Virus record (IMG/VR): IMGVR_UViG_3300014497_000023 | Location: 1-29,750 of that record | DNA length: 29,750 bases | Source of the DNA: a virus | Strand: one strand, 5' to 3' | Program-made: the position numbers and the translations under genes | The notes under the pieces: generated by a model | Seen by the model: the letters and a program-made list of their open reading frames with translations, nothing else | What the model was told of the DNA's origin: nothing | The model's database searches: none | In this document: positions 6,625 to 29,746 of the stretch, piece after piece | Position numbering within the stretch: the first letter of the stretch is position 1 | Layout of the letters: every line of letters starts with the position of its first letter

Positions 6625-6837
6625 TCGCTCGTCTTTCCGAGCTGTCTGCCAAAGACCTTCTCAACTTCGACGCCTCTATGCATCGATCTCGCTGATCCAG
6701 TCTCGCGCCACCCCGAAATCAAGTTTGAGGTCAGGGTGCGCGGGCTGCCGGTGTTGATTCCGTACGTCGCACTATCCGGCTATCGACGTCCAGGCTTCCC
6801 GAAGGCTGTCCTGGCTACAGGTAAATTCGAGGCATAA
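6606..6837 (+). pseudogene. Possible decayed small gene
   Basis: Two coding-like pieces lie in different frames. The first, out of frame with the 80-aa gene, reads VARLSELSAKDLLNFDAS and stops at TGA. The second, in frame with the 80-aa gene past its TAG, reads EVRVRGLPVLIPYVALSG then RRPGFPKAVLATGKFEA and ends at TAA (6835-6837). Joining them needs a one-base shift near 6680, and no start codon with a ribosome site fits either. It is best read as a frameshifted remnant, with moderate doubt. Confidence 0.35.
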
Positions 6838-13054: not shown

Positions 13055-13714
13055 ATGGAAAGACACGAACGTATTGCCCGAGCTATACAGCTCAGCGGGA
13101 GAAAGAAGGGCGAAATTGCGGCGCTGTGCGGCGTCGCGAACTCTGCTGTCACTCAATGGATTACTGGCGAGAGCAAAAGCCTCCGGCCAGAGAATCTATA
13201 CGCCTTGGCAAAAGCGACTGGCTTCAGAGCCGAGTGGCTTGCTATTGGTGAGGGTGCGGAGCAGGAGGCGTCAGAGCCCAACGTCTCGACGACTGAGCAG
13301 CCTTCTCAGAGCTTCCGCTACCCAGTGATCAGTTGGGTTTCTGCCGGCTCTTGGGCGGAAGCCGTTGAGCCTTACCCCGCCGGGATTTCAGATCGCTACG
13401 AGTTTTCCGAATACAACTCGAAAGGCCCGGCGTTCTGGCTTGAAGTCAAAGGCGACTCGATGACATCGCCGGTTGGTACGAGCATCGCCCAAGGCTCACT
13501 GATCCTGGTGGATACCGAAGTAGAAGCGGCGCCGGGCAAGCTTGTGGTAGCCAAACTTCCAGACAGCAACGAGGCGACCTTCAAGAAGCTGGTCAGCGAT
13601 GGTGGAAAGCTCTATCTGAAGCCGCTCAACCCTGGATACCCGACCGAAGTCTTTGATGAAAACTGCCGGATAGTTGGCGTCGTAGTGCAAGCAACACAGA
13701 AGTTTCACTACTGA
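13055..13714 (+). CDS. cI: CI-like repressor, LexA/S24 self-cleaving type
   Basis: This 219-aa repressor has an N-terminal helix-turn-helix (about 5-65: KKGEIAALCGVANSAVTQWI) and a C-terminal S24 peptidase domain. The likely cleavage site is Ala97-Gly98 in SWVSAGSW, the catalytic Ser is Ser135 in VKGDSM, and the catalytic Lys is probably Lys177 in EATFKKL. It would hold the prophage silent at both operator sets and be cleaved with RecA help during SOS. The start ATG has no ribosome site; the N-terminus MERHERIARAIQLSG supports this start. It diverges from cro. Confidence 0.93.
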   Translation: MERHERIARAIQLSGRKKGEIAALCGVANSAVTQWITGESKSLRPENLYALAKATGFRAEWLAIGEGAEQEASEPNVSTTEQPSQSFRYPVISWVSAGSWAEAVEPYPAGISDRYEFSEYNSKGPAFWLEVKGDSMTSPVGTSIAQGSLILVDTEVEAAPGKLVVAKLPDSNEATFKKLVSDGGKLYLKPLNPGYPTEVFDENCRIVGVVVQATQKFHY

Positions 13715-17630: not shown

Positions 17631-17882
17631 GTGCCCAGCCCAGCAGTTACCACATCGAAACCGTCCTCTTCCTATGAAACGGCAGGCCGCCGCCTGCAAG
17701 CCCTGATCGCCGCTCCAAGCGTTCAAAAGGTACAGGCAGTTACAGTGGCGAGGCTGGATCACGAATCACCAGAGGACTGGCAACGCCTACTGGATGAGAT
17801 CGGCGAGACCTCTGGCGTCCGGGTCGAGACCCTGGAGGGCGGCACTGTCAGGATCGGCTGGCGAGAATACTGCGACGCATAA
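17631..17882 (+). CDS. DUF1654 family protein under SOS control
   Basis: This 83-aa protein fits DUF1654 of Pseudomonas phages and prophages: SSYETAGRRLQALIAAPSVQ, then ESPEDWQRLLDEIGETSGVR and GGTVRIGW. The start is a GTG with AAGGAG six bases upstream. The LexA box covers the promoter region and a terminator follows, so it is an independent SOS-induced unit lying just before the left operators. The molecular role is not known to me; a part in prophage induction is possible by analogy with LexA-controlled antirepressors of other phages, but unproven. Confidence 0.75.
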   Translation: MPSPAVTTSKPSSSYETAGRRLQALIAAPSVQKVQAVTVARLDHESPEDWQRLLDEIGETSGVRVETLEGGTVRIGWREYCDA

Positions 17883-17922: not shown

Positions 17923-17981
17923 TTCAGCATTCTGAATTTAATTATTCAGCATGCTTGACACCCATATTTCAGCTTGCTTAA
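17923..17981. promoter_or_regulatory. Left operators: three sites matching the cI-cro operators
   Basis: Three 14-mers of the same family as at 12975-13044: 17923-17936 TTCAGCATTCTGAA, 17945-17958 TTCAGCATGCTTGA and 17968-17981 TTCAGCTTGCTTAA. The second overlaps the -35 and the third the -10 of PL. Two sets of three, 4.9 kb apart, reproduce the lambda OR/OL layout and would allow repressor looping. Confidence 0.8.
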
Positions 17982-17983
17982 AT
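17955..17983 (+). promoter_or_regulatory. PL-like early promoter
   Basis: A consensus -35 TTGACA (17955-17960), a 17-bp spacer and TTAAAT (17978-17983) form a strong sigma-70 promoter for the rightward recombination operon, covered by two operators. Confidence 0.8.
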
Positions 17984-17989
17984 TCGTCT

Positions 17990-18315
17990 CAAGCCAGCAA
18001 TGAACATCGCCGGCCAGCAGCGTAAGCCGCGCCGCTCTTTCACAATTTGGAATCTTCGCGGATCGATCCCCGGAAACGGGCATAGCGCGAAACACAAACT
18101 TCGATCCCCATGCAGGCTCTGGAACCTGCCGGACTCCCCATATGGGAGGACGCCAAACCATGCAAGCCAGCCGGCGAAGAACACCGAACACGAAATGTGT
18201 GACACCGGCCAGGTGGGGAAACCGCGGCGCCGCGCATGGGGCGGATAGCAACACGGAATTTTTCACTGATGCACCTGGTGACGGGTGCATTGGGAAAACA
18301 ACCGAGGGCACGACG
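17990..18315 (+). other. Long structured leader of the PL transcript
   Basis: About 330 bases between PL and the first gene hold several stem-loops in a row. TTCGCG (18055-18060) pairs with CGCGAA (18086-18091) around CCCG-GAAA-CGGG (18069-18080). Then come GCAGG/CCTGC (18112-18129), CTCCC/GGGAG (18134-18148), the palindrome CGCGGCGCCGCG (18223-18234) and ATGCACC/GGTGCAT (18269-18290). No convincing gene is present; the one open frame (from 18000) has poor composition and no ribosome site. It may be a processive-antitermination RNA or nut-like region; no N-like gene was recognised. Confidence 0.5.
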
Positions 18316-18432
18316 ATGAGCGCACCAAAAATTAGCTTTGAAGACTGGCTGAAAAAGAACGGCGTCAAGTGGAGCCACCTGCGCGAACAGGAAAAGCGGG
18401 AAGCGGTGCTGAAGTGGAAATCTGAGGAGTGA
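18316..18432 (+). CDS. Small phage protein (38 aa)
   Basis: The sequence MSAPKISFEDWLKKNGVKWS and then HLREQEKREAVLKWKSEE is a compact charged helical protein. The ATG at 18316 has GAGGG eight bases upstream. It is the first gene of the PL operon, the place of kil/N-type genes in lambda, but shows no known motif. The frame upstream is leader RNA, not protein. Confidence 0.6.
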   Translation: MSAPKISFEDWLKKNGVKWSHLREQEKREAVLKWKSEE

Positions 18433-18433
18433 C

Positions 18434-18477
18434 GATTTCACTGGCAGGCCTTGACGACAGGGCCAGCCAGCGAAATC
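18434..18477 (+). other. Long imperfect hairpin after the first PL gene
   Basis: GATTTC, CTGGC and GGCC pair with GGCC, GCCAG and GAAATC with single mismatches between blocks, enclosing a ten-base loop. It begins one base after the stop and has no T run, so it is not a normal terminator; an RNA processing or antitermination signal is possible. Confidence 0.5.
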
Positions 18478-18575: not shown

Positions 18576-18842
18576 TTACTTTTCGGGGTAAAGCTCGTCG
18601 GCAAGTTCGACTAATTTGCTCGCCATATGCCTCAAAAAATCGCCGTCTGAAGGGAGCTCAAACGTTGTATAAGACTTTTGAGCATCATCGCCAGCGTAAT
18701 TAAGCCACACGGTACTGTAGTCCCAAGTGACATACACGCCGGATGCTTCAACCTCGATCCTTTTGCCCTTTACGCTGTGGACTGATGCAGTGAAGTCCTC
18801 TGGAAGCTCAATAAATTTCCCTTTTTGAGTTTTGTAAGCCAC
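18576..18842 (-). CDS. Hypothetical protein (88 aa), reverse to the operon
   Basis: Not recognised. The GTG at 18842 has AAAGGAG six bases upstream, favoured over an upstream in-frame start that has none. Beta-rich first part (GKFIELPEDFTASVHSVKGK, then RIEVEASGVYVTWDYS) and a helical end (RHMASKLVELADELYPEK). AT-richer than its neighbours and inserted against the early operon, so it may be an independently expressed cargo gene. Confidence 0.6.
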   Translation of the reverse strand: MAYKTQKGKFIELPEDFTASVHSVKGKRIEVEASGVYVTWDYSTVWLNYAGDDAQKSYTTFELPSDGDFLRHMASKLVELADELYPEK

Positions 18843-18934
18843 ACCTATCTCCTTTGGGTTGAAACATAAAAAAGATGTCACTTTGATATCTTCCTATCCA
18901 GTTTCCTTCACACTCATCCCCAACACCACCGCGA

Positions 18935-20089: not shown

Positions 20090-20905
20090 ATGTCCGCAGT
20101 AATGAAACAGGCCGAGCACCTGCCGGCCATCTCCGAGGACGCCCTCGTCGAGGTGTTGAGCGGCAGTCTGTACCCAGGCGCGGCGCACAACTCGGTGGTG
20201 ATGGTGCTGGCCTACTGCAAGGCGGCTCAGCTCGACCCGATGCTCAAGCCGGTGCACATCGTTCCCATCTACCAAAAAGGCCGCGGGATGGTCGACACGG
20301 TCATGCCTGGCATCGGCCTGTACCGCATTCAGGCCGCGCGCACTGGGCAATACGCTGGAATCAGCGACCCGGAGTACGGGCCATCGATGACAGCCACGCT
20401 TGGCGGTGTAGAAGTCACGTATCCCGAGTGGTGTCGAGTGACGGTAAAGCGCCAGATGTCGAACGGCCTTGTCGCAGAGTTCACCGCGAACGAGCGCTGG
20501 CTGGAGAACTATGCGACGGCGAGCAAAGACACCGCAGCCCCGAACTCGATGTGGAAGCGACGCGCTTTCGCACAGCTCGCTAAGTGCGCCGAGGCCCAGG
20601 CGCTGCGCAAGGCCTTCCCCGAAGTTGGATCAGCGCCGACCGCTGACGAGATGGAGGGAAAAATATTCGATGAAGCGCCGCGCGACGTAAGTCCACAGCG
20701 ACAGCAAGAGCCTGAACCAGAAGGCCTACCGCCCTACTCCGATGATCTTCTGAAAGAGAACATCGTCAAGTGGCAGCCGTTGGTTGATGCCAACCGCACC
20801 AGCCCGGAACACCTGATCGCGACCATCAGCAGCAAGTACACGCTGAGCCCGGAGCAGATCGAAAAAATCCAGAACCTGAAAGCCATCGACGGAGACGCAG
20901 CATGA
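20090..20905 (+). CDS. bet: Single-strand annealing recombinase, Bet/RecT family
   Basis: This 271-aa protein resembles lambda Bet and RecT-type annealing proteins. The region KAAQLDPMLKPVHIVPIY, the central MPGIGLYRIQAARTGQYAGI and the later NSMWKRRAFAQLAKCAEAQA match the family core in order; the C-terminal third is linker plus a small acidic domain (LPPYSDDLLKENIVKW) likely to bind SSB or the exonuclease. AAGGA lies before the ATG. It overlaps the YqaJ exonuclease gene by four bases; together they form a two-part recombination system acting on DNA ends. Confidence 0.9.
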   Translation: MSAVMKQAEHLPAISEDALVEVLSGSLYPGAAHNSVVMVLAYCKAAQLDPMLKPVHIVPIYQKGRGMVDTVMPGIGLYRIQAARTGQYAGISDPEYGPSMTATLGGVEVTYPEWCRVTVKRQMSNGLVAEFTANERWLENYATASKDTAAPNSMWKRRAFAQLAKCAEAQALRKAFPEVGSAPTADEMEGKIFDEAPRDVSPQRQQEPEPEGLPPYSDDLLKENIVKWQPLVDANRTSPEHLIATISSKYTLSPEQIEKIQNLKAIDGDAA

Positions 20906-22524
20906 AAATTCACAACGTAGCTCAAGGCTCCGCCGAGTGGCACGCATTGCGCGCTCAGCACTTCACCGCCTCCGAGGCGCCCGCAATGATGGGCGCCTCG
21001 AGGTACCAGACCCGCACCGACCTGCTGACTATGAAGAAAACCGGCATTGCACCGGAGGTCACGCAGGCGCAGCAGTACATCTTCGACAAAGGCCACGCTA
21101 CTGAAGCGCTGGCACGGCCGCTGGTTGAGGTCATGATTGGCGAAGAGCTGTATCCAGTCGTGGGCACCGACGGCAATCTGCTCGCCTCCATGGACGGCGC
21201 AACGATGCTCGGAGAGACGCTTTTCGAGCACAAGCTCTGGAACGAATCGCTCGTGGCCCAAGTGAAGGCTGGCGAACTGGACCCGCACTACTACTGGCAG
21301 CTTGAGCAGCAACTGCTGGTGAGCGGCGCCGAGCGTGTGATCTTTGTTTGCTCAGACGGCACCCCTGAAAACTTCGTGCACATGGAATACCGACCTGTCG
21401 CTGGCCGCGCCGCCCAGTTGGTGGAAGGCTGGAAACAGTTCGAGGCCGACCTGGCCAGCTATGAATTGGCCGAGGCGCCGTCGATTGTCGTCGGCAAGGC
21501 CCCGGACGAGCTGCCAGCGCTACGCATCGAACTGACAGGCATGGTCACCGCGAGCAACCTCAAGGTGTTCGAGGAATCGGCGCTGGCGGTCATCGACTCG
21601 GTGAAGACCACACTGGTTACAGACCAGGACTTTGCCGACGCAAAGAAGGCCGTGAAATGGTGCGGCGATGTCGAGCAGGCAGTCGACACCGCGAAGAAGC
21701 AGGCTCTGTCGCAGACCCAGAGCATCGACGAGCTTTTCTCTGCACTGAACAGGATCAGTGCTCACGCCCGGGACACTCGCCTGAAGGTCAATAAACTGGT
21801 GCAGGCTCAAGAGCTGATGGTGAAGACCAACATCAAGCAGAAAGCTGAGCAGTCGCTGGCAGAGCACATCGCCGCGATCAACCAGACGTTGGGCCGTGTC
21901 ACGCTGCCATCCGTCGCGGCAGACTTCGCCGGCGCCATGAAGAATAAACGCAGCATTGCAAGCCTGCAGGATGCCGTCGATACCGAGCTGGCACGGGCAA
22001 AAATTGCCGCGAGCCAAACGGCGGACGCGATCCGCATCAATTTGGCCAGCTTGGCCGAACTTGCGGTCGATCACGCCTTTCTGTTCAACGACGTTCAGCA
22101 GCTGGTGATGAAGGCAAATGACGATCTGGTCGCGCTGATCAAGGTGCGGATATCGGAACACCAGAAGGCGGAGGAGCAGCAAGCCGAAGCGCAGCGCGAA
22201 CAGATCCGTCAGCAGGAGCTGCAGCGCATTGCGGACGAGGCGAAAGCCAGCGCATCGGTCGAGCCTGCACCAGTCACCAGCCCAGTGCCGGTGAAAGCCG
22301 CCGCACCGGTTCAGTCTTCATCGAAACCAGCGACCACAACCGCAGCGCCGGTGAACCTGCAAGCTGAGGTGTTCGATCTTGAAGCGCTGATCCATGCCGT
22401 TGCTGGCGGTCACGCTCCAATCTCGGTTCTAACCGTGGAATGGGAGAAGCTCGACGCAATGGTCGCCGCCCAAGGCTCTAAATTCAGCATGGCTGGCGTG
22501 AGGCTGGTCAAGGTGGCGGCATGA
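20902..22524 (+). CDS. YqaJ-type exonuclease with a long C-terminal extension
   Basis: Residues 1-190 are a YqaJ/lambda-Exo nuclease: QGSAEWHALRAQHFTASEAP, Glu68 in GHATEALARPL, Asp98 in SMDG, Glu109-x-Lys111 in FEHKLW, and the Gln motif WQLEQQL. It would resect double-strand ends to give the substrate for Bet. The remaining 350 residues are mostly coiled-coil-like helices (about 200-440) and then an Ala/Pro/Val linker (450-490) with a small end domain. Total length (540 aa) is more than double that of lambda Exo, so the extension is a distinct module of unknown role. Confidence 0.88.
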   Translation: MKIHNVAQGSAEWHALRAQHFTASEAPAMMGASRYQTRTDLLTMKKTGIAPEVTQAQQYIFDKGHATEALARPLVEVMIGEELYPVVGTDGNLLASMDGATMLGETLFEHKLWNESLVAQVKAGELDPHYYWQLEQQLLVSGAERVIFVCSDGTPENFVHMEYRPVAGRAAQLVEGWKQFEADLASYELAEAPSIVVGKAPDELPALRIELTGMVTASNLKVFEESALAVIDSVKTTLVTDQDFADAKKAVKWCGDVEQAVDTAKKQALSQTQSIDELFSALNRISAHARDTRLKVNKLVQAQELMVKTNIKQKAEQSLAEHIAAINQTLGRVTLPSVAADFAGAMKNKRSIASLQDAVDTELARAKIAASQTADAIRINLASLAELAVDHAFLFNDVQQLVMKANDDLVALIKVRISEHQKAEEQQAEAQREQIRQQELQRIADEAKASASVEPAPVTSPVPVKAAAPVQSSSKPATTTAAPVNLQAEVFDLEALIHAVAGGHAPISVLTVEWEKLDAMVAAQGSKFSMAGVRLVKVAA

Positions 22525-23676: not shown

Positions 23677-24333
23677 CTAAGGCTCTCCGCTATCCAATAT
23701 TTCCAGCATTCGCGGAGCAAATTTCTCTTTTACCTCGCGAACATCCGAAAACTCAGCAACGGAAAGCTCGAGGGCTAGGATCTTAAAGGCTGCAACTTTT
23801 TTTCTCGCCTCATCACACTTATCTCGGTATTTGGCTTCTGCAGCTATGCCGTCAAGAATGGGCAAATGACCTGATGTAGCTCTCTCAGCTGCGGCGAACA
23901 TTTCATTTGCATCGAGTCTGAACTCGTTACTGTAGCTCTCTATCAAATTCAGGATAGAAGTCTGGTAGGCCAAAACCTTTGCCCTGTTAGCTTCAGACTT
24001 TGCAAGCGCCAGCTGTTCGTCTTGCTTGAGGGAATCGAGACGCTGAAACTTTAGTAATTCTTCAAATTCGTGCTTTTGAACATCTAGAAGTTCTCTTTGC
24101 ATATATACAGTTTTCAGTACTGCTAAAAGCGTTACAAAAGACACGAGTGGGCCAAAAACACCGCCGATGTATCCACCAAAGTTAGACCACTCCACTGAGT
24201 GAAAGGCCAAGGTTCCGCCAAACCTATATCGGTATGCTACGACCGCCGCGATGACCGCCAACATCAACGCAATTACCAAAAATAATAAAAACGATAAAAA
24301 CCGATCCTTCGCACGCTGCTGGCTCTGGGTCAT
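23677..24333 (-). CDS. Putative abortive-infection membrane protein (AbiC-like)
   Basis: This 218-aa protein has two membrane segments (about 13-33, FLLFLVIALMLAVIAAVVAY; and 54-73) joined by the motif WSNFGGYIGGVFGPLVSF, which is typical of putative phage abortive-infection (putAbiC) proteins. A long charged coiled-coil-like cytoplasmic part follows (MQRELLDVQKHEFEELLKFQ onward). AGAGAGG stands before the ATG. It is on the opposite strand to the operon and AT-richer, so it is probably lysogenically expressed cargo that blocks other phages. Family assignment rests on the membrane motif. Confidence 0.65.
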   Translation of the reverse strand: MTQSQQRAKDRFLSFLLFLVIALMLAVIAAVVAYRYRFGGTLAFHSVEWSNFGGYIGGVFGPLVSFVTLLAVLKTVYMQRELLDVQKHEFEELLKFQRLDSLKQDEQLALAKSEANRAKVLAYQTSILNLIESYSNEFRLDANEMFAAAERATSGHLPILDGIAAEAKYRDKCDEARKKVAAFKILALELSVAEFSDVREVKEKFAPRMLEILDSGEP

Positions 24334-24521: not shown

Positions 24522-25214
24522 TTACCGTTGTGAACTTAGGAATAAATCGATTCGGGGTATAGACAGAGTACTCAAAAAGGATTCGTAATCATCGATCCAA
24601 GCGGTGACTTCCGAATTCGTGATCGAGTGCTTAATCAATATCTCCCGCATTTCTGTTGGACTAGGCACTTCCCAAGCATCGATGTTCGCCGTGTCATGAA
24701 TTTCTTTCGAAGCCGCCAACTCATCATCACCAGCATCAGGATTTATTGTGGAGAATGACTTCCGCCCTTCGACACCCTGGCGTATCAGGCGGTAATACAT
24801 GATCGAAACACCTTTGACCCAGTTACCCTGAGCGCCTTGGATTTGTTCCTTGCTTGCCCCTAATGCGGTTAAACATTCAATAATTTTCCTATGAAGCTCG
24901 AATTTAGCTCTCACATCCATCCCGCCCATGAACTCGGTGGCGATGAGTAGCGATAGAGTCATGTTCGAAAGTTCAGCGCCTAACGTCCGAAGCTGCTCAA
25001 CCGTCGCATGCGCCTCGCTGATTGCCTCTCGAAGCTTCGCCTTTAAGGGGCCGACAGACAGTTCCTCCAGCAAATCAATTTTTGAAAAAAGCACCGAAAG
25101 TGTTCCAGATACAAAACAAAGAACCCCGAACTTCGCCGAGTCGAGAAAGACTGCAAGCGGCACGGGCGCGAAAACGGCAATCAATACACCCACCCAAAAC
25201 AGAAAATTTTTCAT
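24522..25214 (-). CDS. Hypothetical membrane-anchored protein (230 aa)
   Basis: Not recognised. Two hydrophobic segments at the N-terminus (about 4-24, FLFWVGVLIAVFAPVPLAVF; and 28-45) are followed by a helical stretch (PLKAKLREAISEAHATVEQL) and a mixed cytoplasmic domain of about 150 residues. The layout (two spans, coiled coil, cytoplasmic domain) resembles the AbiC-like neighbour. Both are AT-richer and reversed relative to the operon, so they may have arrived together as an exclusion pair. No ribosome site is obvious before the ATG. Confidence 0.6.
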   Translation of the reverse strand: MKNFLFWVGVLIAVFAPVPLAVFLDSAKFGVLCFVSGTLSVLFSKIDLLEELSVGPLKAKLREAISEAHATVEQLRTLGAELSNMTLSLLIATEFMGGMDVRAKFELHRKIIECLTALGASKEQIQGAQGNWVKGVSIMYYRLIRQGVEGRKSFSTINPDAGDDELAASKEIHDTANIDAWEVPSPTEMREILIKHSITNSEVTAWIDDYESFLSTLSIPRIDLFLSSQR

Positions 25215-29659: not shown

Positions 29660-29746
29660 TGGTGCCCGAAGCCGGAATCGAACCGGCACGCCCTTACGAG
29701 CGGGGGATTTTAAGTCCCATGCGTCTACCAGTTTCGCCATTCGGGC
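29660..29746 (-). tRNA. tRNA-Leu (anticodon UAA)
   Basis: Read on the minus strand, GCCCGAA pairs with TTCGGGC before ACCA, the D arm has TGGTAGACGC, the anticodon loop is CTTAAAA giving UAA, a long variable arm (CGCTCGTAAGGGCG) marks the Leu class, and the T arm has GGTTCGATTCC. CCA is encoded. The first anticodon-stem pair is a T-C mismatch. The integrase gene points at its 3' end, so the gene very probably carries the attachment site, remade intact by the prophage end. Confidence 0.95.

Follow-up and report, generated by a model that had tools for sequence, protein, structure and literature searches.

The early-left (PL) transcript of a Pseudomonas-type temperate phage opens with a structured RNA of about 210 nt, here called the boxA-pseudoknot leader RNA, at positions 18034-18245 of the window (the whole stretch of DNA analysed, a virus record of 29,750 bases). 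A boxA is followed by an RNA of about 200 nt whose parts are a pseudoknot of 7 bp, a hairpin that keeps the loop sequence CUCUGG, and a multibranched domain at the 3' end. Compensatory changes among relatives demonstrate, at the level of sequence, that this RNA structure, the pseudoknot included, is conserved. The element probably serves as a cis-acting processive antitermination RNA that would use host Nus factors through its boxA, with no recognisable N protein.

Because the genes for RecT and YqaJ exonuclease lie within it and the CI gene adjoins it, the plus-strand operon that begins near 17990 is read as the early-left (PL) operon, a long operon containing recombination genes and the integrase. 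Its promoter combines a perfect -35 hexamer (TTGACA, 17955-17960), a spacing of 17 bp and the -10 hexamer TTAAAT (17978-17983), and boxA begins about 45 nt downstream. In relatives, the distance from the end of the -10 hexamer to boxA is mostly 44-63 nt, most often 50-52. The operators of these relatives are wholly unrelated in sequence, and the leader is nonetheless kept, so that the element is the first thing in the PL transcript irrespective of the operator. The features of the region are the following, with the basis of each in brackets.

13055-13714, plus strand: CI gene, phage repressor with an S24 peptidase domain (PHROG and Pfam searches)
17935-17954, no strand assigned: palindromic operator-like sequence CTGAATTTAATTATTCAG, CTGAAT-N6-ATTCAG, upstream of the promoter (read from the sequence)
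17955-17983, plus strand: PL-type sigma-70 promoter, TTGACA-17-TTAAAT (sequence; 10/12 in a consensus scan)
17990-18033, plus strand: 5' hairpins ahead of boxA, including GC-GUAA-GC at 18020-18027 (folding in relatives)
18034-18044, plus strand: boxA in the window's version, GCTCTTTCACA (alignment with relatives; rrn comparison)
18055-18059/18087-18091, plus strand: P1 stem, TTCGC/GCGAA (double changes)
18069-18072/18077-18080, plus strand: P1a, GNRA/UUCG hairpin inside P1 (double changes)
18060-18066/18101-18107, plus strand: P2 pseudoknot, which crosses P1 (covariation; found de novo by RNAalifold)
18112-18116/18125-18129, plus strand: P3 hairpin with the 8-nt loop CUCUGGAA (100% paired)
18130-18138/18144-18152, plus strand: P4 hairpin (covariation)
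18158-18163/18234-18239, plus strand: P5, closing the multibranched domain (99.7% paired, double changes)
18170-18174/18205-18209, plus strand: P6 (96.7% paired, double changes)
18182-18184/18199-18201, plus strand: P7, inside the P5 domain
near 18212-18223, plus strand: P8, inside the P5 domain
18259-18298, plus strand: hairpin module, copy 1, TTTTTCACTG...GGGAAAA (repeat search; covariation)
18316-18432, plus strand: first operon gene, 38 aa, of no family (no PHROG or Pfam match)
18434-18477, plus strand: hairpin module, copy 2, without a T run (z = -8.0; covariation)
20090-20905, plus strand: RecT gene (PHROG and Pfam searches)
20902-22524, plus strand: YqaJ exonuclease gene (PHROG and Pfam searches)

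Several neighbouring features were recorded. A DUF1654 gene (17631-17882, plus strand) lies immediately upstream of PL. A gene of 101 aa without a known family (18576-18881, minus strand) is on the opposite strand within the PL operon, as are 23677-24333 and 24522-25214, which look like later insertions. On the late-gene strand, the Rfam Proteo-phage-1 RNA (76 bits, 6743-6820, minus strand) is a second structured RNA of this phage. At the end of the record, beside the integrase, there is a tRNA gene (29663-29746, minus strand) that is likely an attachment-site remnant.

The block CGCTCTTTAACA, as judged from its sequence a boxA, first came to light, with about 150 conserved bases behind it, when the window was aligned with psageK9, Leptolyngbya phage Lbo-JY16 and a metagenomic clone. 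The form GCTCTTTAACA is exact in 138 of 218 relatives and present with at most one mismatch in 177, the window's own version having one mismatch (TTTCACA) to the common 11-mer. Pseudomonas rrn leaders carry the same 11-mer 168 nt before the 16S gene; GCTCTTTAACAA was located in two Pseudomonas genomes, and all its occurrences are 168 nt upstream of 16S rRNA. Among 102 distinct relatives, the 42 nt preceding boxA have a mean folding z of -1.26 and usually form one or two hairpins, with differing sequences. Two marks of an rrn-type leader are present, a hairpin before boxA and a boxA identical to that of the host (exact in most relatives, with one mismatch in the window). Of the marks of a lambda-type nut site, a boxA in the early leader was found, and a boxB hairpin directly after it was not. 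The order of hairpin and then boxA is that of rrn, unlike lambda nut (PMC6614801). In 21 genome contexts, boxA-like 11-mers with at most one mismatch occurred on the PL strand in the element only (15 of 15), and the opposite strand had none at a conserved place.

About 10 nt separate boxA from the P1/P2 pseudoknot. P1 and P1a are paired in 98.9% and 91.4% of cells, respectively, and P2 in 96.6%, with double changes at all seven of its pairs. The P2 subtypes are completely different in sequence and each is complementary, namely GATCGA/TCGATC, GCGGGG/CCCCGC and CATCGACTA/TAGTCGATG. The P3 stem likewise exists in several versions (CAGG/CCTG, CCAG/CTGG and CAGC/GCTG), and P4 is 91.7% paired, with double changes at six of six pairs. 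The 3' half, or P5 domain, is of other sequence in some relatives; in loci of the L124/L180, L138/L287, L178/L286 and L288/L292 types, boxA, the pseudoknot and P3 are kept and the remainder is replaced. This exchangeability of the 3' half points to boxA, P1/P2 and P3 as the functional heart of the element. An extra hairpin of about 30 nt is tolerated in the pseudoknot loop of L017, L048, L054, L145 and L163. In addition, the P3 loop CUCUGG (18117-18124) is complementary to the stretch following P6 (18208-18216), which reads CCAGAG in many copies. Complementarity of at least 5 bp occurs in 32 of 55 copies, against about 11 in shuffles, and is suggestive of a possible kissing interaction of the P3 loop with J6/8.

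The evidence for these helices comes from an alignment of 55 distinct copies of the element (A2). Among them, 95.8% of cells are paired, and in 32 of the 43 pairs both partners have changed in a compensatory manner; doubly changed cells number 479, compared with 158 after shuffling (0 of 500), and slid-partner controls pair in 27-44%. The pairs with the highest mutual information in this alignment fall mostly on the helices, and unguided RNAalifold gave largely the same helices, choosing P2 over the crossing P1. A count on the tree inferred about 101 double changes, about 23 of them in the pseudoknot, these numbers being approximate owing to recombination between modules. The folding-energy signal is weak (z = -1.5 for the whole leader and -1.2 for the core), and covariation was used instead for this reason. 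An earlier note, made from the window's letters, had described a highly structured leader with at least five stem-loops and had suggested looking for compensatory changes in related prophages. The changes found are strong, and with P3, P4, P5-P8 and the hairpin at 18259-18298 there are well over five helices. The outer TTCGC/GCGAA stem and the GAAA-tetraloop hairpin that it had noticed (18069-18080) are real, while boxA and the pseudoknot were absent from its description.

The invariance of the P3 loop could in part have been an artefact of the query, as the first scan required the loop motif. Two exact-motif scans of IMG/VR yielded at least 119 and at least 99 contigs. A query with nothing but boxA and TCGATCC gave 110 loci; 106 of these retain GCTCTGGAAC, and three of the other four are cut at the contig end. 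Furthermore, in divergent members found without a motif query, by a model search of 199 genomes, CUCUGG is retained between variable flanks.

The leader is followed by a repeated hairpin module, a long hairpin of the form ATTTCAC..GGCC-loop-GGCC..GGGAAAT that is present in one or two copies per locus, borders the first small genes in 109 loci and covaries across 25 distinct copies. The long mismatched hairpin without a T run that the earlier note had placed after the first small gene is the second copy in the window, a very stable member of this family. One possibility is that these modules are RNA processing sites.

A covariance model from boxA to P4 (R1) matched the window with 128 bits. Its search of 50 whole viral records gave a single significant copy per record, at PL only; no second copy was present at PR in these records or in the 21 genome contexts. 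In one genome sample of the genus, 30 of 199 Pseudomonas species carry the element, whereas a class-wide sample of 274 genomes had it in one, the Pseudomonas genome used as its centre. Named hosts are Pseudomonas, Stutzerimonas and Azomonas, and Escherichia coli genomes and plasmids gave no match. The element is also found in phages said to infect the cyanobacterium Leptolyngbya (L003, 5001-5147), although it is of Pseudomonadaceae type; the stated host may need checking, since those phages carry a Pseudomonadaceae element. Rfam 15 had no match to the leader, either at the gathering threshold or with the E limit raised to 5, the best chance hits having E 0.13. A search of the open literature on boxA, nut, put and Pseudomonas phage antitermination, with subscription papers and preprints outside its scope, found no description. 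The RNA family appears to be undescribed and is missing from Rfam; about one in seven of the sampled Pseudomonas species carry it, as do at least 100 phage contigs.

The earlier note had assumed that several terminators must be passed in the operons. A scan of the sense strand of the window's own PL operon gave no convincing intrinsic terminator, so the premise fails for the window, but it holds for 6 of 21 relatives, in which canonical sense-strand intrinsic terminators stand inside the PL operon between co-directional early genes (for example +961 in L259, +1115 in L257, +1276 in L248, +1313 in L244, and +1780 and +3196 in L258). In these six relatives, no good promoter lies within 250 bp after the terminators. 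A polymerase that started at PL could reach the later genes only by passing them. A loose rule gave 21 sense and 53 antisense terminators downstream and is uninformative. A strict rule gave 8 sense versus 6 antisense, and the presence of terminators, not their enrichment, is claimed for this reason.

Antitermination is the best inference because the terminators of the relatives would have to be passed and no conserved protein accompanies the RNA. A polymerase leaving PL would transcribe one or two small hairpins, boxA and the pseudoknotted domain. NusB-S10 of the host is expected to bind at boxA, and the other Nus factors, or the polymerase itself, are expected to be held by the pseudoknot, by the CUCUGG loop of P3 and by the 3' domain. 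The folded domain would stabilise a termination-resistant polymerase, the job of lambda N or HK022 putRNA, and the modified polymerase would read through the long early-left operon and its terminators, a dedicated phage protein being seemingly unneeded. A more far-reaching form of this proposal holds that the RNA represents a new, self-sufficient class of processive antiterminator, common in Pseudomonas temperate phages, in which the boxA-linked pseudoknot replaces N and directs the host machinery for rRNA antitermination to phage genes, and which acts on both intrinsic and Rho-dependent terminators; it has somewhat less than an even chance of being correct. Several observations count against antitermination: the window has no convincing terminator, its boxA has a mismatch, and the element is absent from PR, whereas lambda and HK022 carry signals on both early operons. 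A boxA may also work in the negative sense, as that of the suhB leader does (PMC5725501).

A nut-like site, in which boxA would bind NusB-S10 and the domain would dock a small, fast-evolving phage antiterminator that was not recognised, is an unlikely alternative, though one to be taken seriously. N proteins, which are small, diverge so far that they can no longer be recognised, and an N-like protein of fast evolution, or a distant N, could have been missed by the search. The lambda boxA plus hairpin, moreover, works only with N on intrinsic terminators (PMC5725501, PMC6614801). Against this, the loci share no protein near the element: none is conserved within 2.2 kb downstream, where the most widespread is found in 25 of 133 loci, and the sole ORF that seemed to be shared in this survey arises, in one subtype, from translating the 3' half of the RNA itself. 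The first operon gene differs in nearly every relative while the RNA core and CUCUGG loop are constant; a docking site should have evolved together with its protein. Two candidate partners were rejected. The DUF1654 protein beside PL has relatives in only 15 of the 51 element-bearing phages, and the arginine-rich N-like proteins downstream are many unrelated chance ORFs, none of them shared.

It is rather improbable that the leader is solely of the rrn anti-Rho type, in which boxA and its flanking structure would recruit the Nus/SuhB complex and so keep Rho off a long leader that is little translated, intrinsic terminators being hardly affected. The host-identical boxA, the rrn-like order and the terminator scan of the window's operon are in keeping with such a role, which nevertheless leaves the retention of a 200-nt pseudoknotted domain unexplained and does not account for the intrinsic terminators in relatives' operons. 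The chances are slim that the RNA acts in trans or outside antitermination (as a processed small RNA, an attenuator or a Nus-dependent control of the first gene) and happens to lie in the PL leader. In its favour, the RNA is of large size and compact, the repeated hairpins that follow it are possible processing sites, and the boxA of the suhB leader acts negatively, as a repressing element (PMC5725501). Yet neither the first gene nor its ribosome-binding region is conserved, the element is tied to one promoter position and not to a target gene, and a T-run terminator is absent at its end. Scarcely credible, finally, is conservation of the leader as a small-protein gene (from the ATG at 18110, MQALEPAGLP..., or as an arginine-rich ORF at 18160, MQASRRR...), for although both ORFs are open in the window and many relatives have an ORF with the beginning MPALEL/MQALEP that stays open over 20-40 codons, the AUG before P3 is replaced by ACG, AAG or ATT in 24 of 215 copies (about 11%), an extra base in the P3 loop of divergent members shifts the frame with the stem still paired (CTCTGGATA), the C-termini of the MPALEL/MQALEP ORF are unrelated between subtypes, and changes in one arm are matched on the other even where both alter the peptide.

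Both coding readings, MPALEL and MQASRRR, were rejected on these lost start codons, shifted frames and compensatory changes. The earlier note had taken the stretch to be gene-free and had named a conserved leader protein as what would refute its reading; no conserved gene occupies the interval from about 17990 to the small gene at 18316-18432, and no conserved protein was found in or just after the element, where apparent ORFs lose start codon and frame. Spurious small proteins have been annotated over the RNA in psageK9 (L002, 4933-5292) and MR15 (L302, 3929-4282), one of them called HAMP domain-containing.

Most of what is known of antitermination by RNA alone comes from HK022 and its relatives. 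The passage of early terminators without N in Pseudomonas temperate phages is undescribed in the literature searched. As a probable antitermination RNA, the leader offers a compact link between phage early control and host rRNA antitermination factors, and it is a candidate tool for terminator readthrough in Pseudomonas.

The earlier note had proposed an RNA-based mechanism resembling the HK022 put sites. The general idea is borne out to the extent that the element, like put, is a structured non-coding RNA that opens the early operon in cis at PL, with folded hairpins and no recognised phage antiterminator; where it lies, and that it is a single RNA, suit a role in antitermination. HK022 put occurs as two copies of about 70 nt (putL and putR), with two stem-loops, at PL and PR, and binds the beta' zinc domain without a boxA (PMC9378689). 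The present element is not a put: it is a single copy of about 210 nt with boxA and a pseudoknot, R1 found nothing in the early regions of HK022 and lambda with filters off and E up to 10, and there is no boxA at HK022 PL. The lack of a conserved protein near the element is no more than compatible with put-like action independent of a phage protein. The presence of a boxA, in contrast to put, points to Nus factors.

With lambda nut (boxA-boxB) and N, the element shares a boxA in the PL leader between the promoter and the first gene. In contrast to nut, its boxA precedes a large pseudoknotted domain and not a 15-nt boxB, hairpins stand before boxA, no N was found and PR lacks the element. In its mode of action it would resemble HK022 put or lambda nut, yet on these features it is assigned to neither. 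The bacterial rrn leader (boxB-boxA-boxC) has the identical boxA 11-mer and the same order of hairpin and then boxA, and host factors are expected to be sufficient in both; it differs in having no counterpart of the pseudoknot/P3/P4/P5 domain in the stretch read, and the present element drives an mRNA. The EAR element and the LoaP leader RNAs are also large structured RNAs near the start of long operons; they act as processive antiterminators, the role proposed for the present element, and differ from it in their hosts and in lacking a boxA. By function, the leader is proposed to be a variant of RNA-based or Nus-based phage antitermination.
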